A stretch of 64,000 bases of DNA from Pseudomonadales bacterium (lineage in GTDB: Bacteria > Pseudomonadota > Gammaproteobacteria > Pseudomonadales > Azotimanducaceae). Every line of letters begins with the position of its first letter. Positions within the stretch are counted from its first letter, which is position 1. Location: positions 1 to 64,000 of the forward strand of contig JANQKS010000003.1 in the NCBI GenBank assembly GCA_028281005.1. The letters run 5' to 3'. The notes under the pieces were generated by a model. The model was not told the origin of the DNA and made no database searches. It saw only the letters and a program-made list of their open reading frames with translations. The translations under genes and the position numbers were made by a program. Shown here in pieces: positions 8,435-39,438 of this stretch.

Positions 8435-8460
8435 TTGCCTCCCGCCCCAAATGGGATAAC

Positions 8461-9622: not shown

Positions 9623-9634
9623 TCAACAAGCTCG

Positions 9635-10537: not shown

Positions 10538-10582
10538 CAAGATATTCTCCCGCGCATTGGCCCATAGACGAGCCACTGGTTG

Positions 10583-10625
10583 TGTCACAACTACTTTACA
10601 CGTTAAATGTACAGCGTAATTGACA
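10583..10625 (-). promoter_or_regulatory. Two perfect PpsR/CrtJ operators before crtE (shared with divergent crtD)
   Basis: TGT-N12-ACA occurs at 10583-10600 and again at 10608-10625, spaced by 7 bp, in the divergent crtE/crtD intergenic region. Both are exact consensus. Binding here could repress crtEF and crtDC together under oxygen. No PpsR gene is in the window. Confidence 0.8.
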
Positions 10626-10741
10626 CCATTCCCAGCAAAAAGTCAGCAAAAGGCCAGTAAAAATCAGCAATAAATCCGTCGAAATGTATTCAAAACCGTG
10701 GGTAACGTGGCGGTTTGCGCGGTGAGCACGGTCCTCGCGCC

Positions 10742-13110: not shown

Positions 13111-13111
13111 C

Positions 13112-22874: not shown

Positions 22875-23924
22875 CTACATCAAAAAGAAATACGCACCAA
22901 ACATCAGCGCTAACACAACCACAAACGCCGCAATGCCAATGCCTGCCTTGCTACCACCTGAACTAGCGCCGCCGGTGTTCGTCGCACTTTTGCCGCGGCC
23001 CTTTCCTGCGTTCGGTAACAAAAAGGTGCACTCAACCGTACCGATGCGGATCTTATCCCCGCTATTCAAAAAGGCGGATACCGCCTTGGCGCCGTTAACA
23101 AACGTGCCGTTGGTAGACATTTGGTCAACCAGCTTCCAGCGTCCTTTTTCATGCGCCAGAATGGTGTGAAACACAGACACACCCTGATCGTTAAAGACGA
23201 TGTCGCGGGCATCATCGCTGCCGATGCTCCATTCTTTCTTATCACCGTCGGTAACCAGTTGAATCACGCTACCCGCTGCTGCACCGGAGGTGACTTGCAG
23301 CAATGGCACATCACTTTCAACTTTTTCCTCCACGGTTTCGCCACGCATCGCGGCTAGGTCTTCGGGGGAGAAAAACTGTGTGCTGGAGGCGTTTTTAGCG
23401 TTTGGATCAGCCCAACTACCGGGTTTCACCGCCTTTTGTTCAGCAGCGGGGGCGTCGGCAGCGGGAGGCTCAGCAGCAGCAGGCGCGTTGGAACTGGCCT
23501 GGGATGCTGCTGCATCTTTGGCGATCTCCGCCTCCAACTCCGCTTGGCTGGGCACGGCGCGCAACATGGTCCGATTGGGGTCTTCTTCACTGTCCGGCGT
23601 CGGCCGCAATACAGTGCGGTCGTCACGCGCTGGGCGCTGTACTTGGAAGGCAAATTTGCTGATGTCAAACGCGACTTCATCACCGTCCGCCAACAGGCGC
23701 TTACCACTGATTCGATCACCGTTGACAAAGGTGCCATTGGTGGAATCTAAATCGTCGACATAAACCCCGTCCGCTTCGACGCTGAGCTTGGCGTGATTTC
23801 GAGAAGGCTGACCGTCGCTGATGACCAAATCACAATCGGCGCTGCGCCCTACGGAATGATCACCGGTGAGTTCAATCTTCTCCCCTGAACCTGAAGTTAG
23901 AAAATATTGATCACCTTGAGACAT
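22875..23924 (-). CDS. Double-FHA domain protein with C-terminal membrane anchor
   Basis: A 349-residue protein. FHA domain 1 (about residues 18-90) has VGRSADCD, SRNHAKL and DSTNGTFVNG. FHA domain 2 (about 222-300) keeps STNGTFVNG but has SVFH in place of SRxH, so its binding may be altered. Between them is a 110-residue Ala/Pro/Glu linker opening with TVLR (104-107) and TMLR (119-122). The same motif is repeated in the kinase at 40863-42626. One C-terminal helix (about 328-348) anchors it. It follows the PP2C gene by 2 bp. Confidence 0.9.
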   Translation of the reverse strand: MSQGDQYFLTSGSGEKIELTGDHSVGRSADCDLVISDGQPSRNHAKLSVEADGVYVDDLDSTNGTFVNGDRISGKRLLADGDEVAFDISKFAFQVQRPARDDRTVLRPTPDSEEDPNRTMLRAVPSQAELEAEIAKDAAASQASSNAPAAAEPPAADAPAAEQKAVKPGSWADPNAKNASSTQFFSPEDLAAMRGETVEEKVESDVPLLQVTSGAAAGSVIQLVTDGDKKEWSIGSDDARDIVFNDQGVSVFHTILAHEKGRWKLVDQMSTNGTFVNGAKAVSAFLNSGDKIRIGTVECTFLLPNAGKGRGKSATNTGGASSGGSKAGIGIAAFVVVLALMFGAYFFLM

Positions 23925-23926
23925 TG

Positions 23927-24802: not shown

Positions 24803-24841
24803 ACGGTTGCCATCCTGGGCCATTGCCCACGGTAAAATCAA

Positions 24842-26143
24842 TCAAAAACGTGCCGCTGCCGCACGACTGGCGGCCCGGAATTTGGCTGGGGAATAGGTCT
24901 TATCTGATTCTACCGTGTCAAACAGATTGTCCAGCACCTGCTGTTGGGCGTCAGCATCACCTAGATTGAGGCTCAAGTTTTCAATACCCAGGAACGCCTG
25001 CTCGGCAGCAGAAAAGTCATTGAGCTCGCCGCTGGCACCATATTGCGCCAGGGTTTTGCGGATGGCGCGCATCTCCGCGGCGCCATAATTACGCTCAAGC
25101 CACACAGCGCCTCGTTCTTGTAGCCAGCTCTGCAGCGCCTGCGCGCGAGTACGGGTGGCGCTGTAGCTGCTCTGCCCGGCTTTCAACAGGTCAACAATAG
25201 CGCTTTGCAAAGCTTGCCGTTCGTCGTCATTCAACACTTTTGCGACAGCTTTGAGCATGAGCAGGTGATGGTCTTGCAGGCGCAATTGTCCCGGTTGCAA
25301 ACCTTGTGCGCGACGCTGTTCACTCCAGCGGATGTCGTCCATGCTGTGGTGACAACTATGGCAGTCGTACAGCGAAAACTCTGGCGTGATACCCGTATCT
25401 TGTAGTCTTTTACCCTGCAAAAGCTGCAAGTAGTTGTCTGCCGCCGCCAATTGCCCCGACAGCCACAGGTTAAAGCCAACCACCGGGCGTTTACGCGCGA
25501 TGTAGTCGTCGTCCACCGCGTAGTGCGCAGGCTGGTTGGCGGTAAACGCTTCCAGCTCAAAACTCAGGCGCGGGTGCCCTGCGCCCATAATTTTGTGCGT
25601 GGTAAACTGATCTTCGTTACCCATGTGGCATTTCAAACACAATGCCGCACGTAACACCGGGTCTTCGGTGGGGTACATGTTTTTCGCCAGATTGTCCGCG
25701 TGGGTGGCGTTTTCTTCGGTATGGCTTTCGATCCACTGGGCAGAGCCGCCATGGCAAGCTTCACATCCCACCCCATCGGTAATCTGAAATTTCTCGCCAC
25801 GCTTATCCGCCACTACGTTGTCCGCATGGCAATCTAGGCAAATGTCCGCGGTATGCGCGCTGGCTAAACCTAAATTGCGCGCAATCCGCTTGGAGTCTTC
25901 GTTTAACAGCGTTTTGTACGCACGCGAATGACGGTCTTCATTGGACCAGATGCGAAATTCGTTGAGCCAGACATTTTCGTTTTCCTGCTCGGAAAGCTTG
26001 CCGTGACAGACACTGGAGGCACAGCTGGCCACCCCCAGATGCACATCTGCATCAATGGGCGGCACATTTCCGTCGGCCTGGACTCCTAAGCTTGCGCTAC
26101 TCAGAACCGCCCATAAGACCAGTTTGGTTATTGTTGCCTTCAT
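24842..26143 (-). CDS. Multiheme cytochrome c, c554-like
   Basis: A 433-residue periplasmic protein with a signal peptide (residues 1-23, MKATITKLVLWAVLSSAS). Heme sites: one CX4CH (CASSVCH, near residue 40) and four CXXCH (CLDCH, CEACH, CLKCH, CHSCH). The first half resembles the cytochrome c554 family; the rest is a helical domain without hemes. The ATG at 26143 overlaps the 3' end of the upstream decaheme gene by 47 bp and gives a proper signal peptide, unlike the longer Arg/Lys-rich open frame. A periplasmic electron shuttle within this operon is inferred. Confidence 0.88.
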   Translation of the reverse strand: MKATITKLVLWAVLSSASLGVQADGNVPPIDADVHLGVASCASSVCHGKLSEQENENVWLNEFRIWSNEDRHSRAYKTLLNEDSKRIARNLGLASAHTADICLDCHADNVVADKRGEKFQITDGVGCEACHGGSAQWIESHTEENATHADNLAKNMYPTEDPVLRAALCLKCHMGNEDQFTTHKIMGAGHPRLSFELEAFTANQPAHYAVDDDYIARKRPVVGFNLWLSGQLAAADNYLQLLQGKRLQDTGITPEFSLYDCHSCHHSMDDIRWSEQRRAQGLQPGQLRLQDHHLLMLKAVAKVLNDDERQALQSAIVDLLKAGQSSYSATRTRAQALQSWLQERGAVWLERNYGAAEMRAIRKTLAQYGASGELNDFSAAEQAFLGIENLSLNLGDADAQQQVLDNLFDTVESDKTYSPAKFRAASRAAAARF

Positions 26144-29100
26144 CCTTACTACCTTTCGCACTACCTTCCGCACTATTTGCCGCCGCGTGTGCAGTCTGTT
26201 GGCGGTTTTCTTTGTTACTGACAACCCAAGGATTGCCGTCATCGTCCAAGTACATACGCCGGATCTCTTCGAGATTAAGCGGCCGCGAACCTTTGCGCCC
26301 AAACACAGCCACTTGACCACCCGTTTCATCCACGCCGCGATCGCGTTCTAACGCCCGTGACAAGCTGCGCGCGGGTTTACCGGTGGCATAGGTGGCAATC
26401 AAGGCCGGATTAGGCTCCGGGCTAAATCCGTAAAACTTTGGCTGCAGGTCGGGTGATGTCAGTTGCAGCACCTTGAGCCCACCTACCCCATCAGCCACAT
26501 AAGCAAACAGGGAAGCATTGGTGGTGGCGACCACCACATCGGATGCATCTACCAAACCTTCTTTTACGGTTTGATACACTTTGAGTTCAGTCGGCCGCTC
26601 AGCGTCAACAATCACCAGACCGTCGGCACCCGCGGCCACGTAAGCATAGGTACGCGCCAGGAAGACGTTACGCGCATCATCCAGCGGTATCGTGTTGTTG
26701 GGTATGACAGACGCCTTTTGCGGATGTGTCACATCCACCACCTTGAGGCCATCCGCATCGGTCACAAACAGATAGCGGAACTGTAAGAAACTGGCAGTGG
26801 CGCCGTTTAGCGGCACGGTGCTAACCACCTGCGGCGACATAGGCTCTTCCAAGCTCAATATCACCAGCTTGTCGCCGGTGGTGATGTACGCCAGGTAACC
26901 ACCCAGGGTGACGTGATTGGCGCCATCCAGCACACCCCCTTGGTTCCACGTCAGCGCACGCGTGAGATTGTTGTTGCGCGGTTCACCATCCGTCATCGTG
27001 TTGATGTCCACCAGGATCAAACCTTCTTTGCGATCGGTGATCACCGCATAGTTGTAGATCGGTAAGAATGGCTGCTCTTGGTTGGTGACCCGCATCAGCT
27101 CACCTTGGTTTTTCCACGGCGCCACCGGTTGGGTGGTACCTAAGGACACGCAGGTGGCGTCATGAGTTTCAATGTGGGTGTCGTGACCCAGCGGTGAGAA
27201 AGGTGCTGTGATAAACCGCTGAGAAAAACCTTTGTTGGCGACGTTAGCCACGTCATACACTTCAAAGCCGCGTGAGCCCTGTGCCACATACAAGTACTCA
27301 CCACGCAGTTGCAGACACCCTACTTCACCGGCGTTGTGGGTGTACGCCGTCTTGAGCGCCTGGCCACGCTGTTGGTGCTCGGTAAACCAATCCGGATAGG
27401 CGTATTGGTGCAGATAGCTGCCGATCACCGCCTGGGGTTCTTCCCATTCGGTGACCTGCACCGCACTGATTTCACCTTCACCGCCGACCCAAGCGTTGTA
27501 CCCAACAAAATCGATAAACTTGGTTCCAAACATCAACAGCTGCGCCATGATCGCGTTGTTGTCGCCGTTAGCGGACAGGTGGCAGTCCTCACATTCCTTG
27601 GTTTCCGTTTTACGCACGGTATGCGGAAAGTGCGGGTTAAGCGCTTGGGAACTGAAGCCGCTGGAAGCCACCGGTGGTTGCTGAATGTAAATCTTCTCGC
27701 GATTGGCGTTGGTGGAGCTCAGCACTAAGGCGGATGTAGAGCGCACCGGCGCAATTTTGCCGCCCTTGGCTGGCCCGCGGCGCCCGATGGTGAACAACTG
27801 ATCACGCGCAACCTGGGGGTTATAGGTGGCAAAGTTGCGGCTGATGCCACCTTCATAATGGTGCCGTTCGGTTTTCCAGTTGGCTTCAATGGGCAAGTGA
27901 CAGCCACCGCAACTGGTGGTCCAGGAAGTGTGGCAGGTATAACACTCCATCTCGTCATAAGAATGTGCCAGATTGTCGGCCGCAACCTCCAGACCCCAGT
28001 CTTGGGTGGTGGTGTCTTTACTCATGAGTTTGGCTCGTGCCGCTTTGGCATTGTAACCCGCATGCGCCGGATTGACGGAGTCTTTCACCAACGACATTTG
28101 CCATTCTTTGTCCGGATACAACATGGAGCGCTGGTACAGATCATCACCCACCCACTCAAACCGACGCCGGCCATCGGGTGTGCGTAGCGCAGCCATGTCC
28201 AAGCCGCCCGCCAACGCGGCAGGTCCAGAGGTAAACAAATTGGGATACTGCTGGGAAGTACCGTGGCAGTCTTTACAATCAATTTCCACCGCCAGCGCCA
28301 CTTCGCCATGTATGTAGCCATTGCCATGGCCGTCGTTGGAGAAATGGCAGTCGACACAATGCATACCCACATCCACGTGGATGGAGGACATGTGGACGGC
28401 TTTCTTAAATTTTTCCGGGTCTTCGTCGCTAACCTTGTTCCCTTCAGCGTCCAACAGGTTACCTTTGCGGTCGCGCTTGTAAATGGCGCGGAAGTTCCAG
28501 CCATGACCGTGATAATCGGCGAAGGTGGTGTCCTTGGTCTGATCATTCAGCTCCCAAACGCCCTTTAGAAAATCCACGTCTGCCCACTTACCCCGGGCGG
28601 CTGCGCCTTCCGGGTTACGCTCGTTCACTTCACGGATCTCCGCGTGACTGGGGTATTGTTGCTCTTCCGGCCACATCAGCGGTGCGTCGGACTCGTAGTC
28701 CCACATGGTGTAACCCAAATAGGTGTTTAAGAACATATTGGGTTGGTGCATATGGCAAATCATGCACTGGCTGGTGGGGATGGCCCGGGTGAACTCATGC
28801 TTCAGTGGATGCCCACTTTTGCTTTTGTCAATGGTGGGGTCCACCGTAATGCTGGTGCCGTCGTGACCGTATTGCGCATAGGGGCCCGAATGGCGCGGGT
28901 CACGGTCATTGCTATACACCACGTGGCACGAAGCACAGCCGGAATTGCGATAGTCGCCGGGCTGATCATTGGTGCCGACAAACCACGTAAACGGGTCATT
29001 TAGCCGGGTTTTAGTGATGTTAATCACTGGCACAGCAATACGCGCACCGGTGCCGGGGCCGCGATTGGACTGCCTTTGGTCGGGTTTACCCGGTTCTTCG

Positions 29101-29963
29101 ATCCGCTGCATCAAACCCAATGCGTTAGGTATGCCGGTTTCCGGGAATAAGTTGGAAATGTTGCGGCCACCGCGCTCGAACACGCGGAACACATCACCCG
29201 GGTCAATCGTCTCCCAAGCCGGCAGCGGATAAATCACCGGCAGGATACCTTCGGCAAACGCGGCATCTTTTAACTCATCAGGCAGTTCCGGACTTTTTAT
29301 CGCCACCCCATACCCTTCGCGGTTATAAGCTTCACCGAGAATGTAGTTTTTGAACGGCAAAATACCGTTGTTGTAGGACGCCCCACCCCACAACATCGCA
29401 CCTGTGCTGTGCATACTGCGTTTACTGGCTTCGATGATTTGCTGGTGACAGGCGCCGCAGGCTTCATCCGCTATGCGGTAATCTGACGGATTCATGAAGC
29501 GGATAAATTCCGGCGCCTCACGATTCAGCAGGGTATAGGTGCGTTCCGGGTTGGCTGAATGGGGAAAGTGCCAGGAATCCGGATACATCGGTAAAACATG
29601 GGCCTGGTTACGCGCATCCGCATAGGCAGTCCCTTCCTTGGCGCGACTGATTTCTCCGTGCCCCGGATTAAACACGCTCGAGTCGCCGCCATGGCAGTCT
29701 GTACAACCGAGTTTTACCGCGGGGTTGCGGTGCATGGTTTTAGTATCCGAATCGGTATGACAGGACACACAACCGGCACTTTTGTCCTCTACCTCAGCGG
29801 CACTTTGCCCGGCCGGTGCCGGTGGCGCCGTGACGTAAGTGCGTTTAACCGGTTTTTCACCCTCCGCGGCCACCGCCCATTCGCTGCATAACAAGGTGGC
29901 AACCAACACTGTACACACAAAGGCACAGTAGCTTGAGAATCTCATGGTCATGTTGGTCCCCAT
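26097..29963 (-). CDS. Decaheme cytochrome c with C-terminal LVIVD beta-propeller
   Basis: A 1288-residue exported protein. After a signal peptide (to about residue 33) it has ten CXXCH sites at residues 65, 87, 169, 343, 400, 536, 563, 674, 685 and 791. From about 880 to 1190 come LVIVD-type repeats, each with an R-YLYVA / GLVIVDV pattern, forming a likely propeller. The C-terminal 70 residues are polar. It starts as TAATG on the porin stop. Position suggests the outer cytochrome partner of that barrel, facing the outside or the periplasm. The substrate is unknown. No Cys near the N-terminus makes a clear lipobox. Confidence 0.88.
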   Translation of the reverse strand: MGTNMTMRFSSYCAFVCTVLVATLLCSEWAVAAEGEKPVKRTYVTAPPAPAGQSAAEVEDKSAGCVSCHTDSDTKTMHRNPAVKLGCTDCHGGDSSVFNPGHGEISRAKEGTAYADARNQAHVLPMYPDSWHFPHSANPERTYTLLNREAPEFIRFMNPSDYRIADEACGACHQQIIEASKRSMHSTGAMLWGGASYNNGILPFKNYILGEAYNREGYGVAIKSPELPDELKDAAFAEGILPVIYPLPAWETIDPGDVFRVFERGGRNISNLFPETGIPNALGLMQRIEEPGKPDQRQSNRGPGTGARIAVPVINITKTRLNDPFTWFVGTNDQPGDYRNSGCASCHVVYSNDRDPRHSGPYAQYGHDGTSITVDPTIDKSKSGHPLKHEFTRAIPTSQCMICHMHQPNMFLNTYLGYTMWDYESDAPLMWPEEQQYPSHAEIREVNERNPEGAAARGKWADVDFLKGVWELNDQTKDTTFADYHGHGWNFRAIYKRDRKGNLLDAEGNKVSDEDPEKFKKAVHMSSIHVDVGMHCVDCHFSNDGHGNGYIHGEVALAVEIDCKDCHGTSQQYPNLFTSGPAALAGGLDMAALRTPDGRRRFEWVGDDLYQRSMLYPDKEWQMSLVKDSVNPAHAGYNAKAARAKLMSKDTTTQDWGLEVAADNLAHSYDEMECYTCHTSWTTSCGGCHLPIEANWKTERHHYEGGISRNFATYNPQVARDQLFTIGRRGPAKGGKIAPVRSTSALVLSSTNANREKIYIQQPPVASSGFSSQALNPHFPHTVRKTETKECEDCHLSANGDNNAIMAQLLMFGTKFIDFVGYNAWVGGEGEISAVQVTEWEEPQAVIGSYLHQYAYPDWFTEHQQRGQALKTAYTHNAGEVGCLQLRGEYLYVAQGSRGFEVYDVANVANKGFSQRFITAPFSPLGHDTHIETHDATCVSLGTTQPVAPWKNQGELMRVTNQEQPFLPIYNYAVITDRKEGLILVDINTMTDGEPRNNNLTRALTWNQGGVLDGANHVTLGGYLAYITTGDKLVILSLEEPMSPQVVSTVPLNGATASFLQFRYLFVTDADGLKVVDVTHPQKASVIPNNTIPLDDARNVFLARTYAYVAAGADGLVIVDAERPTELKVYQTVKEGLVDASDVVVATTNASLFAYVADGVGGLKVLQLTSPDLQPKFYGFSPEPNPALIATYATGKPARSLSRALERDRGVDETGGQVAVFGRKGSRPLNLEEIRRMYLDDDGNPWVVSNKENRQQTAHAAANSAEGSAKGSKDEGNNNQTGLMGGSE

Positions 29964-31918
29964 TAGTATTGCAACAAGAAATTGAGCAACAGGTAATCAC
30001 TGTCTTCGTCCGGGAATAGGTCTTTGTAACCTTCTCCGGGAATCAGGCGCGCGTAAGAGGCGCGGATCACAATGTTCTGCGACATAAAAGGCCGATAGGT
30101 CGCGACGATGGATACATCGTGCCCAATCTCCTCATCTATATTGCCTTGATTACGCGCCACCTCGAGCACCTCGGTGGTGTCGAAACGCAGGTAGTTCCAA
30201 TTCGCCGCGACGCGCAGCGACGGCAAGATGTCTAAATCCACTCCGGCACCCACCAACCAGATACCCGGATTGGTGAAATTTGATTGCCCTTCTTCTTTCG
30301 AAGAGCGCATGGAGTTGAGGATACCGTTACGGCTAGACAAGGTGACGCGGCCGCCGCCAATCAGCGGCACCGGCTGACGAATCCAATAAGCGGTGTCCGC
30401 ACCGGCAAACTGTGGGTTTTCAAAGATCGCGTCAAATCCCTGGCTTTTGTCGTCAAAAGGGTCGTCATCCCCGCTGCCCCACAAGAACGACACGCGCGGC
30501 CGTATCCAGTCCAGATCGTAAGACACCTCCGCCGCGACAAAACCGGCTTCTATATCACTCTCTTCCGCTCGAAACACGCTGCCATCCTCTTTACCGAACG
30601 CGGCATACGCCGACGCGGTAAGGTTTAAGCGCCCAAAGTGGCCGTCGCCGTTGTAGCCGAGGTAGTAAACGTCATAGTCGCGCGGCCGCTCTTCACCGAG
30701 CGAGGCTGGGCGTTGAATGAAGCCGTTCTCGTCGAAGTAGAATTCATCTTCGCGGTTGCGGTTGTAGTACGCCGATACCTGGGAGATGAACCCTTTCACC
30801 GGCATGTCCTGCCAATAGAGATTGGCCACAAATACATCGTCGTCGCGAATACTTTTACCGACGTCGTTTAAGCCGCTGTTTGTGTCTTTTTCTAAACGCC
30901 GAAACCAAGCCAAGTTGTATTGAAAGATGTTGTTGTCGCGATTGCCAAACAGGCGCACACCCAGCTGATTGTCTTGGAACAAGAAGCCGCGAAAATCCGA
31001 AGAAAACGGCTGGATGCCAATCCGAAAGCTGTCGAAGTCGTAGCGGTCTGAGACGTTGCGTAAGTGTTTGTCGTAGAACGCGGCTTGGATGCCGACATGG
31101 TCGTCCCGGCGGGTATCGCGGTTGATCGGCTTAACGTTGATGCCAAGGATCTCGTCGATCTGTACATGGTTGTAGTTCACCACCGGTGTGAAGCGAAATT
31201 CATGATCCGGCGGACGAAATACCGTGTCCCCTTTGTACCAGACAAACTCCATGGCCAAATTCTGGTTCACCAACCATTGATCGTTGCTGCCAAACACATC
31301 CAACTGGCCGGGGTTTTCGGTACTGCTGACACCCACCGGCGTTGGGATCTCGCGGTTTTCATAAACCGTGTCTGAAATGATCAAGGCGTTAAAAAACCAC
31401 TCGCCCACCACGGGTTTATCCGCTTTGAAGACGTTGCGCCCGTTGTACGGATCCCACCAGGGTCCTTTAAACCCCAACGCGTCCATAATCCGCCAGCGGT
31501 CCGGCATCGGCACCATGGCCGGATAATCCGAAGGATCAGGCCGCGGAAGCGGCGATATTTCACCGCGGGTGGCCAGGCGCGCTGACATAGAGCTCGGGTG
31601 CCCAGTGTCTTCGGTGCGCTTCTCAACCGTGCGCTGACGTTCGTAACCAGCCTCATCTTCCGCCGGTGTCACCGCCTCGTCGGCACTTTCACTGCCCGGG
31701 CAAGGCACACGTTCATAACCAGGTCGGCGCCGTCGCACAATGCGTCCGGAGTCGTCCTGATAACAGACTTCAGCCGCGTGCGCGGCCGGGCTTGCCACGC
31801 TGGCACCCGCAGCCGCTAACGTCGCAAGCAACAAAGCAGTTAATGAAGAACCACCAAGCGCTGCGAGCCATTTCAAAATACGCATACCGCAGAACCACTG
31901 TTTGATGGCTTGGATCAT
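29963..31918 (-). CDS. Outer-membrane beta-barrel protein of the cytochrome operon
   Basis: A 651-residue exported protein. The signal peptide is at about residues 12-50, then a C-x(n)-C pair around a basic patch (VCYQDDSGRIVRRRRPGYE), then many alternating amphipathic strands rich in Tyr, Asp and Asn. It ends LLLNFLLQY, with an aromatic last residue, as outer-membrane barrels do. It is not clearly MtrB/PioB (no CXXC near the start). Sandwiched between multiheme genes, it could form a porin-cytochrome conduit. Start MIQAIK at 31918 uses a GGGGAAA from a tandem repeat as its Shine-Dalgarno. Confidence 0.75.
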   Translation of the reverse strand: MIQAIKQWFCGMRILKWLAALGGSSLTALLLATLAAAGASVASPAAHAAEVCYQDDSGRIVRRRRPGYERVPCPGSESADEAVTPAEDEAGYERQRTVEKRTEDTGHPSSMSARLATRGEISPLPRPDPSDYPAMVPMPDRWRIMDALGFKGPWWDPYNGRNVFKADKPVVGEWFFNALIISDTVYENREIPTPVGVSSTENPGQLDVFGSNDQWLVNQNLAMEFVWYKGDTVFRPPDHEFRFTPVVNYNHVQIDEILGINVKPINRDTRRDDHVGIQAAFYDKHLRNVSDRYDFDSFRIGIQPFSSDFRGFLFQDNQLGVRLFGNRDNNIFQYNLAWFRRLEKDTNSGLNDVGKSIRDDDVFVANLYWQDMPVKGFISQVSAYYNRNREDEFYFDENGFIQRPASLGEERPRDYDVYYLGYNGDGHFGRLNLTASAYAAFGKEDGSVFRAEESDIEAGFVAAEVSYDLDWIRPRVSFLWGSGDDDPFDDKSQGFDAIFENPQFAGADTAYWIRQPVPLIGGGRVTLSSRNGILNSMRSSKEEGQSNFTNPGIWLVGAGVDLDILPSLRVAANWNYLRFDTTEVLEVARNQGNIDEEIGHDVSIVATYRPFMSQNIVIRASYARLIPGEGYKDLFPDEDSDYLLLNFLLQY

Positions 31919-31920
31919 GG

Positions 31921-31985
31921 CTATTTCCCCACACGATTTGCCCACATTATTTACCCACACTATTTCCCCGCACTATTTCCCCGCA
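31921..31985 (-). repeat. Five tandem 13-bp units across a stop codon and a ribosome-binding site
   Basis: On the coding strand the units read TGYGGGGAAATAG with small changes in two of them (31921-31933, 31934-31946, 31947-31959, 31960-31972, 31973-31985). The outermost unit encodes the last codons and TAG stop of the GlcG-like gene. The innermost lies three bases before the porin ATG and provides GGGGAAA. Unit number sets the distance between the two genes. Confidence 0.85.
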
Positions 31986-34006
31986 CAGGGGTTTTGCTCA
32001 TCGCTGTCGATAAACGGCTTCTGCGGGCACTGGATATACCGTAAACGTTCCCCTTGCGGCTCCAGGCGATCGGCGCGGATATCCGGCGGGGCGTTGTTGA
32101 TGGCGCCACCTAACGCTTCACCGGCGTTGTGCACACCCAAGAAGGCAATCATGTCATCCTGATCGATGCCATCTCCGGATACGCCAATACCCCCTACCAA
32201 GGTATTGCCGCGATAAATCGGCACGCTGCCCGGGAAAATTTGCAGACCGTTGGCCGCCTTGAGTTCGGTGACGGTCGGCGGGCCGAGAGATAAATCCCCG
32301 CGCACATCCACACCGGCGCAGTTTTGCCCAACGTCGGGCGCTGCGCCCAACAAGAACAATACGTGTTGCAATACCGCGTTTAAGGTCAAATCCAGCTGCA
32401 GGCCGGATGAAAACACGCTCCACTCACCCCTCGGTAAACTGAAGGGGCCATTCTGGGTACCTTCAATGCCATCCGGGTAAAACGGCCGCGACAAGTTGCC
32501 TCCGGCGCGGTCGGAAAAAGCAAACGCCCCGGTCACCAGGGCGTTGGGGTCGCCGATAAATGCTTGCGCCGCATCCACGTAGTCACCCAGCACACTGGAG
32601 CGGCCAGCCCCCAGATAAATGGCATCCGGCAGGTTACGCAGAAATACATCAGTGCCTGCGTTGGAAAACAGTGTGGCGGTACGCGCCTTTTGCAAACTGA
32701 CATCCGCGCCAAACACCGGCGCATCACGGGTACGGGCCATCCCCAAAATGGCGCCGTTGGTATCCACCACGGAAATAGTAACCCGCGCCTGGGAGTCCAA
32801 TGGCCGCCGGATTTGCGCACGCGCGCGATTGGCAATAGCCAGGGCTTCGCTGATCAGCGTACGCACTTCGTCCGCCGTCAGCTGGCTGCCGCCGAGCAGC
32901 GCTGCATCTGTGCCGGCCTGGGGCGGGTAACGCAAAGCGTTGGCGCCATCCACAAACACAAAGGCATCACGGCCCGGATAATTGACGTCGTTGTCCGGTC
33001 GTATACCGGACTCCGGCTGCCCAAACGCCGTGCCTTGGGCGATGGTGCCGGAGAAATAACCAGGCAACGCAAACAGCACCCCATCCGCGGACGTTAACGT
33101 GTTAAAGCCTGGGGCAGATGCCGGATCACTGGCCAAATCGCCAAAGCCAACATCGGAAAAGCGGAAGGTTTTACCTTCCACCGTGATGCGGTCAGCGCGC
33201 CGATCCAACGGCGCGCCAAATCCAAAAGTGGCGGCAGTGGCAACTAACTCGTCGACGTCGCGGTCCAGGTCACTGATGATGGTATCAATGCCGTAGCGAC
33301 CGTCGGCGATCACCCCCACACCACCCACGGCGGTGCCACCTTTATATAACGGTAAGCCGCCGGGGTCTGCGGACAATCCCAGCGGTGAGCGCTTCGGCCC
33401 CACATCAGGACCTACCCCATTAAAGCGCAGAGCAAAGTCGGAACACGGCAGCTGACTAAATTGCACGCCAAACAGCGGCCCCGCCGGTTGATCGGTTTCA
33501 CCCGGGTTAAAGTTCTCCTGCACAATCTGGTTGGCAGTGCGCGTGGTGAACGCGTTACCCTCCGAAGACAAGAACGCACCGGTCACCGCCTTGGCCACAG
33601 CGGCCGCCGCGTCAACGCCGTCGTTCGGCAAGTTTATCCCCTCCAAACCCGCGTTGATGATGGCATCGCCGTTGGCATCGGTGCGGGTTGCCACCAATAT
33701 CTGCTGCGGCGCCATCTGAAAAATGCCTAAGATATTGCCGACCCGATCCGCCACGGCGATGGTGGCATTTACACCTTGCGCCTGAGCTTCTGCGACCGCT
33801 TGGGCAATCACGGTTTCGACATCCGCCACGGTGAGCCGGGTGGTGTCGTCTGCACAACTTCCGCTACACGCCCCCGGGGTGGTATCGGTACCCGCGTTGC
33901 TGCCGCCACCGCCACCGCCACAGGCCGCCAACGTGAGCAACCCCGCCAGGAGCCACACACATATATACGTGTAGCGCGAAGAAGATCGAATCCAGGAACC
34001 GGTCAT
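31973..34006 (-). CDS. Lipoprotein with two GlcG/HbpS-like domains
   Basis: A 677-residue exported lipoprotein: signal and lipobox LLTLAACGGG (Cys at about residue 29) then a Gly/Ser linker. Two GlcG/HbpS (DUF336) modules follow, each with the helix-strand start (VIAQAVAEAQAQG, LISEALAIANRA) and the glycine loop VGGVGV / VGGIGVSGDG. They are enlarged by insertions compared with the 130-residue stand-alone domain. HbpS-type domains bind heme or sense redox; that role here is inferred. ATGA overlap with the upstream cytochrome gene. Its last codons lie inside the 13-bp tandem repeat. Confidence 0.8.
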   Translation of the reverse strand: MTGSWIRSSSRYTYICVWLLAGLLTLAACGGGGGGSNAGTDTTPGACSGSCADDTTRLTVADVETVIAQAVAEAQAQGVNATIAVADRVGNILGIFQMAPQQILVATRTDANGDAIINAGLEGINLPNDGVDAAAAVAKAVTGAFLSSEGNAFTTRTANQIVQENFNPGETDQPAGPLFGVQFSQLPCSDFALRFNGVGPDVGPKRSPLGLSADPGGLPLYKGGTAVGGVGVIADGRYGIDTIISDLDRDVDELVATAATFGFGAPLDRRADRITVEGKTFRFSDVGFGDLASDPASAPGFNTLTSADGVLFALPGYFSGTIAQGTAFGQPESGIRPDNDVNYPGRDAFVFVDGANALRYPPQAGTDAALLGGSQLTADEVRTLISEALAIANRARAQIRRPLDSQARVTISVVDTNGAILGMARTRDAPVFGADVSLQKARTATLFSNAGTDVFLRNLPDAIYLGAGRSSVLGDYVDAAQAFIGDPNALVTGAFAFSDRAGGNLSRPFYPDGIEGTQNGPFSLPRGEWSVFSSGLQLDLTLNAVLQHVLFLLGAAPDVGQNCAGVDVRGDLSLGPPTVTELKAANGLQIFPGSVPIYRGNTLVGGIGVSGDGIDQDDMIAFLGVHNAGEALGGAINNAPPDIRADRLEPQGERLRYIQCPQKPFIDSDEQNPCAGK

Positions 34007-35709
34007 AAGTGACGCTCCAGATAATTAATGGGCTCTACCACCTGCGGGTGGTATTGGTGGCAACTGATACAATCCAATGGCACGGTGTCGGCGGTGTTAC
34101 GATCCGAGTGGCACTGGGTGCAGTTCAAGATATCCGGAATCATGAGATCAGCGCTGGTGTTCGAGGTGGTTGCGCTGTGGCAGGTCAGACACGCTTCATC
34201 CCCTTGCGCGTCCTTCTGGGTAAAGTGCGAACGATGGTCGAATATCGCGGCGGGAATGAAATCGTGAGACAACCGTATCGGGTGCACCTGATAACGCGCG
34301 AAAATGTCCTGCGCCTGGGTGTCTTCAACCACGTGGCAGGTGACGCAGCCGCTTCTGGTGAATTGATCCAACACCGCGTTTTCGGTGCTTTGTTGAGCAC
34401 ACTCGAGGGTGGTACCACTACAACTTGAGCCACGATCCCGGCGCCGATCGGGAATGCGTCTGCCACCCGTGTCACGCTGCCGAGGCTGGGCAAACTGCAA
34501 AGCAAAGTGGCCTTGCATCATCTGGATGACTTCTGTGGGTTGCCCGTGGGGCAGCTGGCGGTCGCGCGCCGAGATATCAAAGGTCAGCTCATGGCAGTCC
34601 TGGCAATGAGCCTCCATGCTGATGGGCTCAAAGTGTTCATCATCCGCGGTTAACGTGTGGCAGTCTGCGCACACCATGCCACGGCCTTCTTGAGCGGTTT
34701 TTACCGAGTCCGGGTCTAAGTGCAAATCATGGGGAAATTTCAGGTTGGACGTTTCTGCGGCACCTTCCAACAGCGCCTCTTTAACACCCCAGGAAAAACT
34801 CAAACCGGTACCCGACGCTGTAGCGGCGGGTGTCAGCAAGGCCACTTCAAACGCTGGGTGATTTTCAACATTAAAGCCGTGTACCGCCTGCATGTGACCA
34901 GCACCATCGCTGAGCGGCGCTGGATCTGCGTGACAATCCACGCACAAACCATCGGCTTCAACAATCAAAAAGGTCGGTTCGTTGTGTTCTACATGACACA
35001 CCGCACACCGCTCAGTGGTGACGTTGGAGGCAGCGTAATGCGTGTCGGGGTAGTGATCAATCAACTCGGCATGACAGGCGACACAGGCTTCGTCTTGGAC
35101 CTTTTGGAATGGCACCTGGTGGCATGCGCCGCAATCATCGCCGATAGCGACGTTGTGCACCGGGTGCAAAGGTCCGCTGGTCCAATAGGCGTCGGTGAGC
35201 AACACAGCATCCGGGTTGGGTGTGCTGTCGTTGCCGTCGAGAATCAGCACCAGGGGTATCAGCAATCCCGCCACCAGGATTAACACGCTTAACACCCACG
35301 CCGGTCCGCGCTTGGACAGCCAGGTGTCGCTCAGGCCGGTTTGGAAGGCATGTTCAAAGGCCGCAGGATCAACGTCCGGATCAGGCGTGAGTTCCAACGC
35401 AGCATCAAATCCGGCCGGCGCCGCTGCCACGGTCAAGGTATGGCCACCGACCTTAAAGGTATCGCCAACCGCCAAGGTGGCCGACTTGGTGCGTTCGCCG
35501 TTGACCTCAATGAAGCCGCCGTTGGTTTTTACCCGCACCCCGCCACCGGCCGCGGTGAGCACCGCGTGGGCAGCCTGAATGTCGACACCCAGCAGCTGTA
35601 TGAGCTGATCATTACCACAACCCATGCTGATTTTGTCAGCCGACAGCTCACGATCCACAAAAACACCGACGCCGGTGCTGTCCTGGACTTCGCGCAGTAA
35701 CAGTTCCAT
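34003..35709 (-). CDS. Degenerate FHA domain fused through a membrane helix to a decaheme cytochrome
   Basis: A 568-residue protein with an unusual architecture. Residues 20-95 follow the FHA pattern (ISMGCGNDQLIQLL, IQAAHAVL, GFIEVNGER, VGDTFKVGGHTLTV), but the usual GR is GC and SRxH is QAAH, so phosphothreonine binding is probably lost. A membrane helix follows at 137-157. The periplasmic part has ten CXXCH sites (residues 193, 209, 235, 256, 347, 369, 455, 507, 530, 547). No signal peptide: N-in, C-out. The ATG lies 4 bp after the cytochrome-b-like gene. It would carry electrons in the periplasm while its fold faces the cytoplasm. Confidence 0.85.
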   Translation of the reverse strand: MELLLREVQDSTGVGVFVDRELSADKISMGCGNDQLIQLLGVDIQAAHAVLTAAGGGVRVKTNGGFIEVNGERTKSATLAVGDTFKVGGHTLTVAAAPAGFDAALELTPDPDVDPAAFEHAFQTGLSDTWLSKRGPAWVLSVLILVAGLLIPLVLILDGNDSTPNPDAVLLTDAYWTSGPLHPVHNVAIGDDCGACHQVPFQKVQDEACVACHAELIDHYPDTHYAASNVTTERCAVCHVEHNEPTFLIVEADGLCVDCHADPAPLSDGAGHMQAVHGFNVENHPAFEVALLTPAATASGTGLSFSWGVKEALLEGAAETSNLKFPHDLHLDPDSVKTAQEGRGMVCADCHTLTADDEHFEPISMEAHCQDCHELTFDISARDRQLPHGQPTEVIQMMQGHFALQFAQPRQRDTGGRRIPDRRRDRGSSCSGTTLECAQQSTENAVLDQFTRSGCVTCHVVEDTQAQDIFARYQVHPIRLSHDFIPAAIFDHRSHFTQKDAQGDEACLTCHSATTSNTSADLMIPDILNCTQCHSDRNTADTVPLDCISCHQYHPQVVEPINYLERHL

Positions 35710-35713
35710 CCAG

Positions 35714-36583
35714 CTACCAGTAAATGAACGTCGAAATGATGTGCACGATGAGTGCCACGATGAGTGCAATGGTCAGCGGCACATGCACATACAGCCACAC
35801 GCGCAACCAGCCCTCTAGCTGTATGTCTCGGCGTATGCGGCGCAAAATGGTTTGCCGCCGGCACAACAGGGATAACATTTCCTCCAACGCAACCGCCTCG
35901 GCCGCGCGCTCCGCCTTGGGGATACGCTCTGCAACAAGATCCACCACGTACTGCTGATCCTTGTTTGGCGCGGGTTTGCCTGCATCGGTTGCGACCAGCG
36001 AATTGTCCTTGGCAAACAGTTGCGCCAACACACCACCGCCAATCGCGGTACGCTCGATGCTGCTGGAAATGGCGCCTTGGAGATCCGCAGAGCAATTGCC
36101 GACCAGGGCCAAACCACGTGTATTTAGGTCGTAGAGCTCGGCAAACAATGTCTGCCGGGAACCGCCGCGGCGATTTTCAGCCAGGCTGTGTGGGTAATTG
36201 ATGTATACGTGCAGCCCGTAGAAACCGCTGAAAATCACCAGACACATCAGCACATAAGCCACGGTGTGGACGTTCCAGCCAAACTCCATGGCGCTGTGCA
36301 GCGAGCCTATGATCAGCACCGCAGTGCCGAGATAGATGTGCGCTGACGTCCAACCCTGCACGGTTCCCATGGTGGACTTATAGCTGCGCTTGCGTACCCC
36401 CAACCAGGACAACCAAACGATCAACAGTGCACCCAAAGTGCCCAGCGTATAACCTTGCCAACTGCTGCCGCTGGGCGGATTGGCCGCGGAGTGGGACGTG
36501 TACAAGCCGACGCTGATGATCACCAATATCAATGACCACCAAAGATAGCGGCCACCTCGGTAACGGAAGATGTTCTCAAACAT
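35714..36583 (-). CDS. Cytochrome-b-like membrane protein
   Basis: A 289-residue protein with five predicted helices (four in the first half, one at the C-terminus). Helices three to five carry His at heme-ligand spacing (SAHIYLG..SLHSAM; VHTVAYVL..YGLHVYI; YVHVPLTIALIVALIVH), suggesting two b hemes. A soluble stretch of about 130 residues precedes the last helix. It starts as TGATG on the preceding stop, so the two proteins are probably partners: reductase in the cytoplasm, membrane b-heme carrier here, decaheme next. The family is not firmly recognised. Confidence 0.75.
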   Translation of the reverse strand: MFENIFRYRGGRYLWWSLILVIISVGLYTSHSAANPPSGSSWQGYTLGTLGALLIVWLSWLGVRKRSYKSTMGTVQGWTSAHIYLGTAVLIIGSLHSAMEFGWNVHTVAYVLMCLVIFSGFYGLHVYINYPHSLAENRRGGSRQTLFAELYDLNTRGLALVGNCSADLQGAISSSIERTAIGGGVLAQLFAKDNSLVATDAGKPAPNKDQQYVVDLVAERIPKAERAAEAVALEEMLSLLCRRQTILRRIRRDIQLEGWLRVWLYVHVPLTIALIVALIVHIISTFIYW

Positions 36584-39138
36584 CAGTCCACCAACCTTAT
36601 GAACTGCTCCGGAGACAGGCGTTTTGCCGCTCCGGTGGGACAGGCCGCCACACAAGCTGGCCCGCCTGGTTGGTTCATACACGCGTCACATTTCACTGCG
36701 CGTTTACCGCTGGCCTTGGCGGTATCATCCGGCTCAAACCCCTCTACCTCACCGGGGCCATCACCACGACCGAATAACATCCAGGAGAACAAACCTGGTT
36801 TTTTCGGCGCGGGATAAGACATCTTGATGACGTCGTAGGGACAATTTGCTTCACAGTTGCCGCAACCGATGCAGGTATCGTCGATGAACACTTCCCCATC
36901 CAAGCCGCGATTAATGGCGTTGGGTGGACAGTCTTTCATGCAATGCGGGTGTTCACAGTGGCGACAGGAGATTGGGATGTGGATGTAGGCAAACGACGGC
37001 CCCGCGCTGCGATCCAAGCGTGATATGCCGTCGTGGGTTTCCGCACAGGCTTTTTCACAATTGTCGCAGCCCACACACAGTCGTTCGTCTATCAACAGCG
37101 CATCCGTTGCTTCACCCAAACCGTTGTTCATTAAAAACTGCATGACGCCGGTGGATTCGGTGCGCACTTCCATTTGCGACAAAGCCAGGGCTTGGCTGCT
37201 CACTTGCTGTTGCAAGCTGGCCACACCGGCTTCATTTAATTCAATCAGCGCCAGAAACTGGGTGCGGTCAATTTCTATGGTTTCACTCGCAACACTGGCC
37301 ACTGCGCTCTCGCGCCGACTTGGGTCCCCCATCAAGGACATCTGCCCAAACAGTTCACCCGCGCGTAGCTCCGCCACCAGCACCGGTGGACCATCATCGG
37401 TGCTGCGACTTAGATTAACCGAGCCGCTGCGCATGAGGTGCATGGAAGCACCGTCTTCACCCTGGCGATACACCACCTCACCCGCTTTAAACTCCCGTAT
37501 CGGTGTGTTCTGGGCAATGTCGCGCAACTGCTGGAACGTAGCTTCGGGGGCAAAATGACGCTGCAGCTCGCGCACGATGAAAATCCAATCGATGCCCGCG
37601 CGGACCTCTTCATTGGAGTTCATCAGCTTAACCATGGTACGGCGCGGGCTTTCGATGAGGATACAGCCGCTGCCGGCACGTGCCGTTTCTTTCCGTGCTT
37701 GACCTGAAATTAGGCTGCCTTCGCCAAAAAATTCACCCCGTCCCAAGGTGCGCAAAACTTCACCGTGGCCATCTTCAATGATCACCTCACCTTCAACGAT
37801 GGTGAAAAAGGAAGTGGCGTAGTCGCCTTGTTGATAAAGGTAGGCGCCTTCTTCAATGATGCGCGCGGTACGCGGCTGCGGGTCTTTGTCCTGCAGTTGG
37901 CCAAGCAAGGTGTCCAGCTTAGTTTGTGCTTCTTGGTGCATCGGCCCTTCGGCGTATGAGACCAGCACATTGCTTTCGATGATCAGCTCACGAAAGTTTA
38001 GGGTATTGAGCTCCCTGAACATGGGAATACGTTGTTGGAACAGCTCGAGCAGCTCATCCACCTCACGCATGAAGGGCATCATGTGGAATTGATATTCGAG
38101 CAGCGGATGATCCGCCGGTTTGATCAGGTTGCCGCGGATGAACTCAATGACGTCATGTCCCTGGTTCATCGCCTGTTTAATCAACGGACAACCCGCCAAC
38201 GCGCCGATCACGTAGACCCCGGGCACGTTGGACTCGTACGTACTACTCAGTTCGGGCACCGCGTCAGGGCGAGCGTTGGGGAACTCAACGCCAATACTTT
38301 CAACAAACTTACGCGGCGGTATGCCACCCAAACGTGCGATCACCCGGTGGCACGGTACTGCTTTTTCACCGTCCGGGGTTTCAAACCAGATGGTGATGGG
38401 AATGTCACCCTCGGCGTTTTCCTCCACCCGCAGCACGTTGGTTTCATACAGGCAGGAGAATTTGTTTTTGGGATCATTAATCGCCGCCAGCACGGCATTA
38501 AGGTTGCCGTCTTTGGCGCGGCTGAATTCGTCGCGGCGGTTGACGATCACCACTTCGTTGTGGTGGCTGAGCGCGATCGCGTTTTCAATCGCCGCGTCCC
38601 CAGCGCCGACCACCACAATCACCTCATCGCTGTAGGCATCCGGATCGTCTAATTGATATTGGATTTGCGGGAGGTTTTCGCCATCTACGCCGAGTTTACG
38701 CGGATTGCCCGCCGTGCCCATGGCAAGAATGACGCTGCGCGCGGTTAAGCGGCTGCCGTCCGCACACGCAAGCTGAAACACATCCCCCTGGCGACTCACT
38801 TGCGTGACATCCGCGCCGTAGCGAATGTTCACCCCTTGAGCTTCCAGGGACGTCTGCCACTCGCCTAATATGGATTCACGGGTACCTGCCTGAAAATCAA
38901 AATCGCTGCGCAGATCCAGGAAACCCGGCTCTGCCATGACGTGTTTGCCTTTTTGGTACTGCTGGATGGTTTTGGCGGGCGCGTTAAACCCTTCTAACAA
39001 GACATAAGACGGTGCGGTCAATCCGTTTTGGGCGTCGTGAAACTGCGCGCGTCCGGCAGCGCTTAAGCCGGCTGGTCCCGAGCCGACAATCGCGACCTCA
39101 AAATCAGCCGCGGCTTGTGCTTGATTCGCCCCTTCCAT
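36583..39138 (-). CDS. FAD/NAD(P) oxidoreductase fused to two cNMP-binding domains and a 4x[4Fe-4S] ferredoxin
   Basis: An 851-residue cytoplasmic protein in three parts. Residues 1-350 form a two-dinucleotide flavoprotein (GSGPAG at 19-24, GAGDAA at 178-183) without the CxxC redox disulfide of thioredoxin reductase. Roughly 420-660 hold two CAP_ED domains (GEFFGEGSLISG; GELFGQMSLMGD), the second lacking clear evidence of ligand residues. Roughly 680-840 is a DmsB/NrfC-like ferredoxin with CVGCDNCEKAC, CRHCEHPHC, CIGCGNCEANC and CDACMNQ..CVAACP. NAD(P)H-to-quinone or cytochrome b transfer gated by a cyclic nucleotide is plausible. First gene of the operon. Confidence 0.9.
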   Translation of the reverse strand: MEGANQAQAAADFEVAIVGSGPAGLSAAGRAQFHDAQNGLTAPSYVLLEGFNAPAKTIQQYQKGKHVMAEPGFLDLRSDFDFQAGTRESILGEWQTSLEAQGVNIRYGADVTQVSRQGDVFQLACADGSRLTARSVILAMGTAGNPRKLGVDGENLPQIQYQLDDPDAYSDEVIVVVGAGDAAIENAIALSHHNEVVIVNRRDEFSRAKDGNLNAVLAAINDPKNKFSCLYETNVLRVEENAEGDIPITIWFETPDGEKAVPCHRVIARLGGIPPRKFVESIGVEFPNARPDAVPELSSTYESNVPGVYVIGALAGCPLIKQAMNQGHDVIEFIRGNLIKPADHPLLEYQFHMMPFMREVDELLELFQQRIPMFRELNTLNFRELIIESNVLVSYAEGPMHQEAQTKLDTLLGQLQDKDPQPRTARIIEEGAYLYQQGDYATSFFTIVEGEVIIEDGHGEVLRTLGRGEFFGEGSLISGQARKETARAGSGCILIESPRRTMVKLMNSNEEVRAGIDWIFIVRELQRHFAPEATFQQLRDIAQNTPIREFKAGEVVYRQGEDGASMHLMRSGSVNLSRSTDDGPPVLVAELRAGELFGQMSLMGDPSRRESAVASVASETIEIDRTQFLALIELNEAGVASLQQQVSSQALALSQMEVRTESTGVMQFLMNNGLGEATDALLIDERLCVGCDNCEKACAETHDGISRLDRSAGPSFAYIHIPISCRHCEHPHCMKDCPPNAINRGLDGEVFIDDTCIGCGNCEANCPYDVIKMSYPAPKKPGLFSWMLFGRGDGPGEVEGFEPDDTAKASGKRAVKCDACMNQPGGPACVAACPTGAAKRLSPEQFIRLVD

Positions 39139-39438
39139 CCCTTGTTTATCCAGAGCCTCGCTCCGGATTTACGCCCCCTGCCACATGAGCCCCTTTGAAT
39201 CCTTTCGGCCGTTGCTCGCAACCGCTCACCCCCACGGCGCGACCTCCCTTACCACCGCGACCGCGCGCCGCGACCGCGCGGGTTTCCCGTAAGGGATACT
39301 AGCGCAGCTTTGCTGAATAAACATCTCACTTTTTGTTAATCTTGCGTGACGCCTGCTCAGCCTCTGTACACCGGCTGAGCAGGCGTCACATGGAAGATGA
39401 GCACGCGCACGTTCAGCGCAGCAAACAAGGGGACCAAC
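39139..39438. promoter_or_regulatory. Divergent intergenic region with a 17-bp perfect hairpin
   Basis: 300 bp separate the oxidoreductase (minus) from gdhA (plus). GTGACGCCTGCTCAGCC at 39346-39362 pairs perfectly with 39373-39389 across a 10-nt loop. No U-run follows on either strand, so an operator, RNA structure or repeat remnant fits better than a terminator. A 13-bp tandem duplication (CCGCGACCGCGCG twice) lies at 39255-39280. Confidence 0.6.

Follow-up and report, generated by a model that had tools for sequence, protein, structure and literature searches.

A conserved proteobacterial gene set that may couple a cytoplasmic NADPH reductase to multiheme cytochromes across the cell envelope

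Does a run of genes for a flavin reductase with cyclic-nucleotide-binding (cNMP) domains, a cytochrome b, three multiheme cytochromes and an outer-membrane barrel encode a single system, and if so, which way and to where would it move electrons? The question is raised by a stretch of 64,000 nt (the window: contig JANQKS010000003.1 of assembly GCA_028281005.1, Pseudomonadales bacterium, Azotimanducaceae), on whose minus strand nine coupled open reading frames (ORFs) are transcribed from 39138 down to 22875 (Table 1). A first-pass annotation read them as an electron chain from cytoplasm to cell surface, controlled by cyclic nucleotides and Thr phosphorylation, and knew of no described system of this kind. 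We find that the genes belong together, and give a probability of roughly 45% to the reading that they encode a trans-envelope NADPH oxidase, gated by cyclic nucleotides, which exports electrons. Loci and genomes examined are labelled L and G respectively, followed by a number.

The order, common strand and coupling first proposed were borne out by the ORF survey and by a check of the junctions. The reductase and cytochrome b genes share TGATG at 36583. The stop of cytochrome b (35714) and the start (35709) of the gene for a decaheme with a forkhead-associated (FHA) domain, the FHA-decaheme, are separated by 4 bp, and the latter gene shares ATGA (34003-34006) with that of a GlcG-like lipoprotein. 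The barrel gene follows after 12, 54 or 87 bp, depending on start codon, and shares TAATG at 29963 with the gene for a second decaheme, the propeller decaheme. This overlaps the c554-like gene by 47 bp, given an ATG at 26143; then come the PP2C gene after 0, 18 or 39 bp, again depending on start codon, and the double-FHA gene (FHA2) after 2 bp. Terminator-like sites within the nine genes (22, with 19.3 expected) and promoter-like sites (1, with 8.9 expected) were judged uninformative. Domains were called with Pfam at E 0.01 and with NCBIfam at its curated cut-offs; Pfam agrees with the annotated domains, namely reductase with cNMP and Fer4, HbpS-like, LVIVD, Cytochrome_C554, PP2C and two FHA.

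That such genes might be adjacent only by accident is ruled out by their neighbourhoods. Scanning named genome contigs with the propeller decaheme turned up 168 relatives, and we retained the best 80. These loci (L010-L089) were picked by short peptides of this protein, which biases its identities upward, and several are near-duplicates, for example the Pseudoteredinibacter set. Among the 58 informative loci, each with at least 9.3 kb of upstream DNA, GlcG and barrel genes are present in all 58, and the reductase, cytochrome b and FHA-decaheme in the same 55, so that all six core genes occur together in 55/58. They have the order and strand of the window in 46. In seven loci, titled Betaproteobacteria (two being metagenome-assembled genomes, MAGs, titled Bordetella), the reductase lies behind the c554-like gene; in two, the inner and outer halves are on opposite strands; and in three only GlcG, barrel and propeller decaheme were seen. 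The arrangement is conserved far beyond chance. Outside the core, the c554-like gene is found in 35 of the 58 loci, PP2C in 13 and FHA2 in 14. All 13 PP2C loci carry gammaproteobacterial titles, and the PP2C and double-FHA pair is a lineage add-on. Three lake-type MAGs (L045, L063, L068) bear titles such as Bordetella parapertussis and Klebsiella pneumoniae; their gene content looks like that of other proteobacteria, and the titles are probably wrong.

The set is widely scattered. The propeller decaheme is strongly matched in 3/58 related genomes, that of the window included (G052 gave a weak match, through the propeller only), in 17/293 genomes of a sample of the order and in 11/397 of a sample of the phylum, again with the window's own genome included. 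The reductase is found in 14/397 of the phylum sample, among them all 11 decaheme carriers, and in 4/58 relatives, among them all three strong carriers. Where the examined stretch held no reductase, the genome had one elsewhere in 10/10 cases, just past the stretch in G403, G305, G166 and G547 and far off in the others. Presence of the outer half thus implies the inner half, but the converse fails. G328 (L161/L162) has one inner trio that is complete but lacks an outer half in its vicinity, plus a reductase copy lacking recognisable partners, and G359 (L163) has inner genes only, likewise with no outer half nearby. In G461 (L160) a contig end lies close to the trio, which is accompanied by GlcG and the beginning of the barrel; no decaheme was found in that genome. 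In G009 (L147, 7870-17886) the inner trio adjoins gdhA and a different outer set: a 5-heme protein, a 485-residue exported protein and a 4-heme protein. Distances among homologues of seven proteins co-vary, with r of 0.77-0.94 (0.92-0.94 within the inner trio) and none of 300 permutations as high, a correlation to which shared ancestry contributes.

The reductase matches Pyr_redox, two cNMP_binding domains and Fer4, and PF13247 spans residues 718-773. Counting as conserved a ligand kept in at least 97% of aligned homologues, it has 16 conserved Cys, none before residue 688. The protein is therefore predicted to hold four [4Fe-4S] clusters and to lack a conserved CXXC of the thioredoxin reductase type. 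The motif NR..EF.RAK is kept among the homologues, and we take it to resemble the NADPH site of thioredoxin reductase. The phosphate-binding cassette of the cNMP domains is largely conserved (domain 1: G 56/56, E 54/56, R 55/56; domain 2: G 56/56, E 42/56, R 56/56).

No Pfam family, FRD (PF01794) included, matches the cytochrome b at E 0.01. Among 60 sequences, WX3HX13H occurs twice in 59 and once in one, and SGXXG in all 60. Simple hydropathy gives five helices in 26/60 and three to six in the others, the window protein having three. Its single match to a solved structure by sequence (E 0.053) was judged to be due to chance. In G359, reductase and cytochrome b form one frame of 1118 residues that holds both WX3HX13H motifs. 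This fusion supports the proposal that a cytoplasmic NAD(P)H reductase feeds a b-type carrier; that multihemes are fed as well, within one functional unit, is likewise supported.

The two decahemes look like different kinds of protein. Each has ten CXXCH motifs, at about 37 residues per heme in the FHA-decaheme and about 80 in the propeller decaheme, and on this measure the former looks wire-like and the latter enzyme-like. The FHA-decaheme has 20 His and 20 Cys conserved, as ten bis-His hemes need. Its FHA domain in the window is degenerate, as annotated, to judge from Cys at the Arg position (Arg in 41/59 homologues) and Gln at the Ser of SRxH. The c554-like protein has four CXXCH and one CX4CH (CASSVCH), with 10 His and 10 Cys conserved, and is therefore predicted to bind five hemes. 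Of all proteins in the set the propeller decaheme is the best conserved, although its identity is inflated by the choice of loci. It has no relative of solved structure by sequence (E up to 0.1), and the fold matches listed for its model are propellers only, barely covering the heme region. In G206 (L130, 5472-9265) its gene is split over two overlapping ORFs, and in G003 (L003) one TGA lies within the aligned stretch, as decay, an assembly error or a natural split might produce.

The enzyme-like spacing leads to the explanation that the propeller decaheme is the terminal reductase of a periplasmic enzyme system, a small soluble substrate entering through the barrel channel and being handled by the GlcG lipoprotein. 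Against this, the protein matches no known multiheme enzyme family above cut-off and no solved structure by sequence. It also has 13 conserved His beyond those of its CXXCH motifs, which could bis-ligate all ten hemes, so that no open catalytic heme is evident; and its high identity owes something to locus selection by its own peptides. We consider this explanation somewhat unlikely.

For the barrel, Pfam gave nothing at E 0.01, NCBIfam gave one match under its cut-off (DESULF_POR1), and no relative of solved structure was found by sequence (E up to 1). The predicted structure has 18 long strands, and AlgE and OprD-type channels are the closest folds among the matches listed; MtrB has no entry among the 50 fold matches listed, which excludes nothing. 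The lipoprotein gives an HbpS-like match. In six loci a secreted-looking protein of 173 residues (L026, 239-760), with no Pfam match, is encoded between FHA-decaheme and GlcG, about 4.3 kb upstream of the decaheme; all-against-all clustering of unassigned flanking ORFs returned this protein and otherwise mostly spurious antisense ORFs.

The annotation took multiheme and barrel genes together to indicate a porin-cytochrome conduit to the surface. Their adjacency stands, but the barrel matches neither the MtrB nor the PioB family and is predicted to be 18-stranded and AlgE/OprD-like, so that a conduit of the MtrAB type is unproven and a porin-cytochrome conduit to the surface is just one possibility among others. 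A classical conduit of the MtrCAB kind, with a surface-exposed propeller decaheme serving mineral or electrode respiration, would account for the adjacent barrel and multiheme genes and for G009, which pairs the same inner trio with another multiheme-rich outer set. We nevertheless regard it as very unlikely. There is no Mtr or Omc family match above cut-off, the barrel model has 18 strands, and the decaheme bears no strict lipobox and is not wire-like; moreover, some Halieaceae have separate MtrCAB clusters and so need no second (in the available passages of PMC8805035).

A recurrent neighbour missing from the first-pass annotation is gdhA. The window protein scores 720.6 bits as an NADP-specific glutamate dehydrogenase (GDH), against a curated NCBIfam cut-off of 536. 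GDH was surveyed in 29 genomes with the propeller decaheme (from the relatives and the order and phylum samples) and in G009, 30 in all. NADP-GDH is present in 23/30, and lies less than 4 kb from a gene of the system in at least 13/30 (G000, G083, G103, G206 with a partial match, G305, G009, G403, G442, G507, G547, G578, G622 and G648), a lower bound because the inner half was not located in G076, G133 and G203. The chance expectation is estimated at less than 1% per genome. The gene is divergent, co-directional or within the operon (G648), and this varied placement argues for repeated association. A form of the periplasmic-enzyme explanation that would fit is reduction of a nitrogen compound to ammonium, captured by the neighbouring GDH.

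A second recurrent neighbour bears on regulation. In eight loci, two on Sphingobium plasmids and the other six in genomes of family f88, which we guess are probably sphingomonads, a calcineurin-like gene, resembling class III cyclic-nucleotide phosphodiesterases, overlaps the FHA-decaheme gene or lies 16-216 bp behind it, and L083, L076 and G547 have a relative elsewhere within the locus. The protein is annotated CpdA in one record; it is nearest to SpdA/CpdA and Rv0805, under the curated equivalog cut-offs. The window itself has no match. Taken with the conserved cNMP cassette, the phosphodiesterase-like gene behind the inner trio makes cyclic-nucleotide gating, as first proposed, the most economical reading.

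On the basis of these observations, the trans-envelope NADPH oxidase would work as follows. NADPH would reduce the FAD of the reductase in the cytoplasm, and electrons would travel along its four [4Fe-4S] clusters, reach the pair of b hemes in the inner-membrane protein, and move on to the periplasmic, wire-like decaheme with its FHA tether. From there they would reach the propeller decaheme, via or beside the c554-like pentaheme. At the outer membrane, the propeller decaheme would act together with the 18-stranded barrel and the GlcG lipoprotein and pass electrons to an acceptor. The two cNMP domains would set activity in response to cAMP or a related cyclic nucleotide, NADP-GDH would be a local NADPH partner in hosts with an adjoining gdhA, and the kinase/PP2C/FHA circuit would be an addition in the lineage of the window. 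The domains, conserved ligands, gene linkage, co-occurrence and single reductase-cytochrome b fusion can be read from the sequences. We infer the use of NADPH rather than NADH, the outward direction, the remaining electron order, the place of the propeller decaheme and the identity of the ligand. The proposed order follows from domains, topology and the fusion. That electrons run outward is deduced from the NADP-type motif, from the partnership with NADP-GDH and from the lack of any energy-coupling part. Passing electrons from NADPH to bis-His hemes is energetically downhill.

Several points weigh against this reading. If electrons leave the cell, their passage through an 18-strand barrel, as modelled, is unexplained; such a barrel is too narrow for an MtrA-like plug. 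If they stay inside, the system would be a periplasmic reductase with its own channel. A strict lipobox on the propeller decaheme was found in 0/81 sequences, though a loose test on over-long ORFs flagged 41/81. In the window, cNMP domain 2 has Gln at the usual Glu position, and domain 1 has Lys after the Arg, where Ser or Thr is usual. No gdhA was seen beside the system in 17/30 carriers (the gene is present in 10 of these, and none was found in seven), and GDH appears in just 3/80 loci of the set with 10-kb flanks (L014, L022, L066). These flanks commonly stop close to where the reductase gene begins, so that the clustering of flanking ORFs missed gdhA, which emerged from plasmid records and whole genomes. 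The window's gdhA also occurs at 89-90% identity in G007 and G025, which lack the system; 54/58 relatives lack it, and 10 of them have GDH. Finally, the authors who described PCC4 drew the opposite direction, from donor to quinone (PMC5566968, in part).

PCC4 is the closest published system, and on its account the claim that nothing similar had been described was too strong. Multiheme chains across the envelope have been described before, and a prediction of 2017 already covered the inner half. According to the available passages of that paper (He et al., 2017; PMC5566968), the inner-membrane proteins of PCC3 and PCC4 have five helices, two WX3HX13H and SGXXG, and PCC4, which is a prediction only, has three multiheme cytochromes with 4, 5 and 10 heme sites plus a porin. 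In its subgroup II a pfam13247 gene lies upstream of the inner-membrane protein; in one host the Fe-S gene and inner-membrane protein are annotated as a single gene; and porin-less clusters of multiheme, inner-membrane-protein and redox genes are also described (PMC5566968). The window cytochrome b carries both of these sequence motifs, and the gene directly upstream of it, the reductase, holds pfam13247. The single annotated gene parallels the fusion in G359, and the porin-less clusters resemble the stand-alone inner trios found here. L147, with 5-, 4- and 10-CXXCH genes beside the same inner trio, has the published heme counts and looks like PCC4; its 485-residue protein has no barrel-profile match (E 1e-5) and no Pfam match, and ends in Phe. 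On these sequence comparisons the inner half is PCC4-related. The window set as a whole is not classed as PCC4, because its cytochromes have 10, 10 and 5 hemes rather than 4, 5 and 10. Its outer half (GlcG, AlgE-like barrel, propeller decaheme) does not appear in the available passages of PMC5566968, and the main text of that paper lacks the words FAD, ferredoxin, forkhead and cyclic.

The resemblance raises the possibility of uptake in the manner of PCC4, in which an extracellular donor is oxidised, electrons move inward to quinone or NADP+, and GDH uses the NADPH. As well as the signature of the cytochrome b (PMC5566968, in part), this explanation can call on PMC10734462, a Gallionellaceae pangenome, where the available passages list among iron-oxidiser cytochromes, in a table row under 'Other', a 'Forkhead-associated protein' (cluster 403, 10 CXXCH, last column 27). 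Compared by description, it shares an FHA domain and ten heme motifs with the FHA-decaheme, and it too qualifies the claim of novelty; those passages give neither gene context nor function for it. We consider uptake unlikely. Electrons from Fe(II) or Mn(II) need an energy supply to reach NADP+, and no device for such coupling is encoded; moreover, G328 and G359 each have one inner trio that lacks an outer half in its neighbourhood. The carriers by title include Sphingobium, Dokdonella and Solimonas, which we take to be genera of heterotrophs.

Other known systems are more distant. The window shares with PCC3 the inner-membrane-protein signature and the presence of porin and multiheme genes, but its cytochromes have at most 10 hemes each. 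Those of PCC3 have medians of 34 and 21 hemes and of 26 residues per heme (mostly more than 20 hemes, at 22-39 residues per heme), with porins of up to 42 predicted transmembrane regions (available passages of PMC5566968 and PMC10734462). With MtrCAB, MtoAB and PioAB it shares the idea of a multiheme chain and an outer-membrane barrel. It differs from them in a barrel with no MtrB/PioB family match and from MtrCAB in its inner donor, an NAD(P)H reductase rather than quinol via CymA. Against TIGR03508 (MtrA/DmsE-type) the FHA-decaheme scores 27.0 bits, the cut-off being 192.2, and no match is listed for the propeller decaheme. The latter partially matches ExtM of the Ext selenite/tellurite operon, at 58.9 bits, far under the curated cut-off of 800, and is not classed as ExtM. 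A Methylobacter MtrAB-type cluster (PMC13322032, in part) is different from the window set.

NADPH, FAD and a two-heme b-type membrane protein with HX13H pairs are also features of the NOX/FRE proteins, a likeness already remarked for the PCC3/PCC4 inner-membrane protein (PMC5566968, in part). The window set differs in its TrxR-like flavin domain, four Fe-S clusters, mostly separate polypeptides and periplasmic multihemes, and its cytochrome b has no FRD match. A broader idea, tentative and rather doubtful at present, is of a dispersed, partly plasmid-borne class of NADPH-driven exporters in aerobic proteobacteria, bypassing quinone, NOX-like but envelope-spanning, with interchangeable outer halves, here with the decaheme-propeller as terminal enzyme. 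In such exporters a flavin/Fe-S enzyme gated by cyclic nucleotides would oxidise NADPH, which an adjoining GDH would often supply, and electrons would cross the inner membrane and periplasm to the terminal enzyme at the outer membrane.

Characterised trans-envelope electron chains mostly begin at quinol and have been studied in metal respirers, whereas that of the window would begin at a pyridine-nucleotide reductase with built-in cyclic-nucleotide sensors. Carriers include cultured strains such as Sphingobium, with the set on megaplasmids, in which direction and acceptor could be tested. If the oxidase reading is true, it describes a regulated outlet for NADPH reducing power in ordinary aerobes, and could explain two orphan entries of iron oxidisers, PCC4 and the 10-heme forkhead-associated protein. 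Among the papers listed in the open-licence literature, supplements apart, we found no description of a propeller-decaheme/GlcG/barrel set or of an NADPH/cNMP reductase with multihemes, and no mention of the GDH link, the phosphodiesterase link or the spread through cultured heterotrophs.

Control by Thr phosphorylation, the other regulation first proposed, fares less well. PP2C, FHA2 and a Ser/Thr kinase do adjoin the chain genes, but they are outside the core, and the FHA domain of the decaheme is degenerate. Kinase homologues are found near L013, L034, L127, L131 and L148, loci or genomes that carry PP2C, and a kinase/PP2C/FHA phospho-circuit seems to travel with the PP2C/FHA2 add-on. TVLR-type motifs number six in the kinase (0.09 expected), three in FHA2 (0.06 expected) and one in cytochrome b (0.12 expected), with none in the other six of the seven electron-transfer and envelope proteins; phosphorylation of the chain itself is therefore not claimed. 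The six T[VI]LR/TTVY-type motifs lie in the kinase N-terminus (40863-41200), and motifs of this type occur in FHA2 too, with one in FHAup. They are candidate phospho-acceptor or FHA-docking sites.

Table 1. Positions of the nine coupled genes and of adjoining features in the window
Feature	Position	Strand	Basis or remark
NAD(P)H reductase, 851 aa: TrxR/YpdA-like FAD domain, 2 cNMP-binding domains, predicted C-terminal four-cluster [4Fe-4S] domain	36583..39138	-	Pfam/NCBIfam, alignment
Inner-membrane di-heme cytochrome b, 289 aa	35714..36583	-	two WX3HX13H, one SGXXG
FHA-decaheme, 568 aa: degenerate FHA, one transmembrane helix, periplasmic decaheme	34003..35709	-	CXXCH count, Pfam, alignment
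HbpS/GlcG-like lipoprotein, 677 aa	31973..34006	-	Pfam, lipobox LAAC, 4 conserved Cys
Outer-membrane barrel	29963..31960, start may be 31918 or 31885	-	structure model
Propeller decaheme, 1288 aa, C-terminal LVIVD beta-propeller	26097..29963	-	Pfam, CXXCH count
Cytochrome c554-like pentaheme	24842..26143; longest ORF start 26329, likelier start 26143	-	Pfam, heme motifs
PP2C-type Ser/Thr phosphatase, C-terminal transmembrane helix	23927..24841, start may be 24823 or 24802	-	Pfam
Double-FHA protein (FHA2), C-terminal transmembrane helix, TVLR/TMLR motifs	22875..23924	-	Pfam
NADP-specific glutamate dehydrogenase (gdhA), divergent neighbour	39397..40791	+	NCBIfam above cut-off
Ser/Thr protein kinase, six TVLR/TTVY-type motifs	40863..42626	+	Pfam, motif count
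FHA-domain membrane protein (FHAup), convergent neighbour	22122..22763	+	homologues near L010, L014, L132/L148
Perfect 17-bp inverted repeat	39346..39389	.	inside 258-bp divergent GDH-reductase intergenic region; may be operator or terminator
Caspase-like protein directly after Ser/Thr kinase	42623-44251		sub-cut-off NCBIfam match; homologues adjoin L013, L034, L082, L148

Beside the locus, about 1-19 kb along the window (933-19163), lies a photosynthesis gene cluster, whose genes look pufLM-, bchXYZC-, crt- and bchOID-like. Fifteen proteins of this region had no match in any locus tested (tblastn, E 1e-30), that of Chromatocurvus halotolerans (L015) included. With no matches beside other loci, the adjacency was judged accidental and a functional tie to photosynthesis was rejected.

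The set also appears to be mobile. The window decaheme is nearest to those of L010-L013, its two genus-mates ranking only 33 and 42 of 80. In G025, one of the two genomes that keep the GDH without the system, the genes that follow GDH (esterase, epimerase, RND and RapA) are the same as those of the window, which points to an older GDH site that either gained the nine genes and the kinase around it or lost them. The set is plasmid-borne in Sphingobium and Sphingopyxis: 13 records have the decaheme, the 12 from Sphingobium also have the reductase, and two of the 13 are typed as conjugative. On the Sphingopyxis plasmid, an NADP-GDH gene adjoins the outer half.

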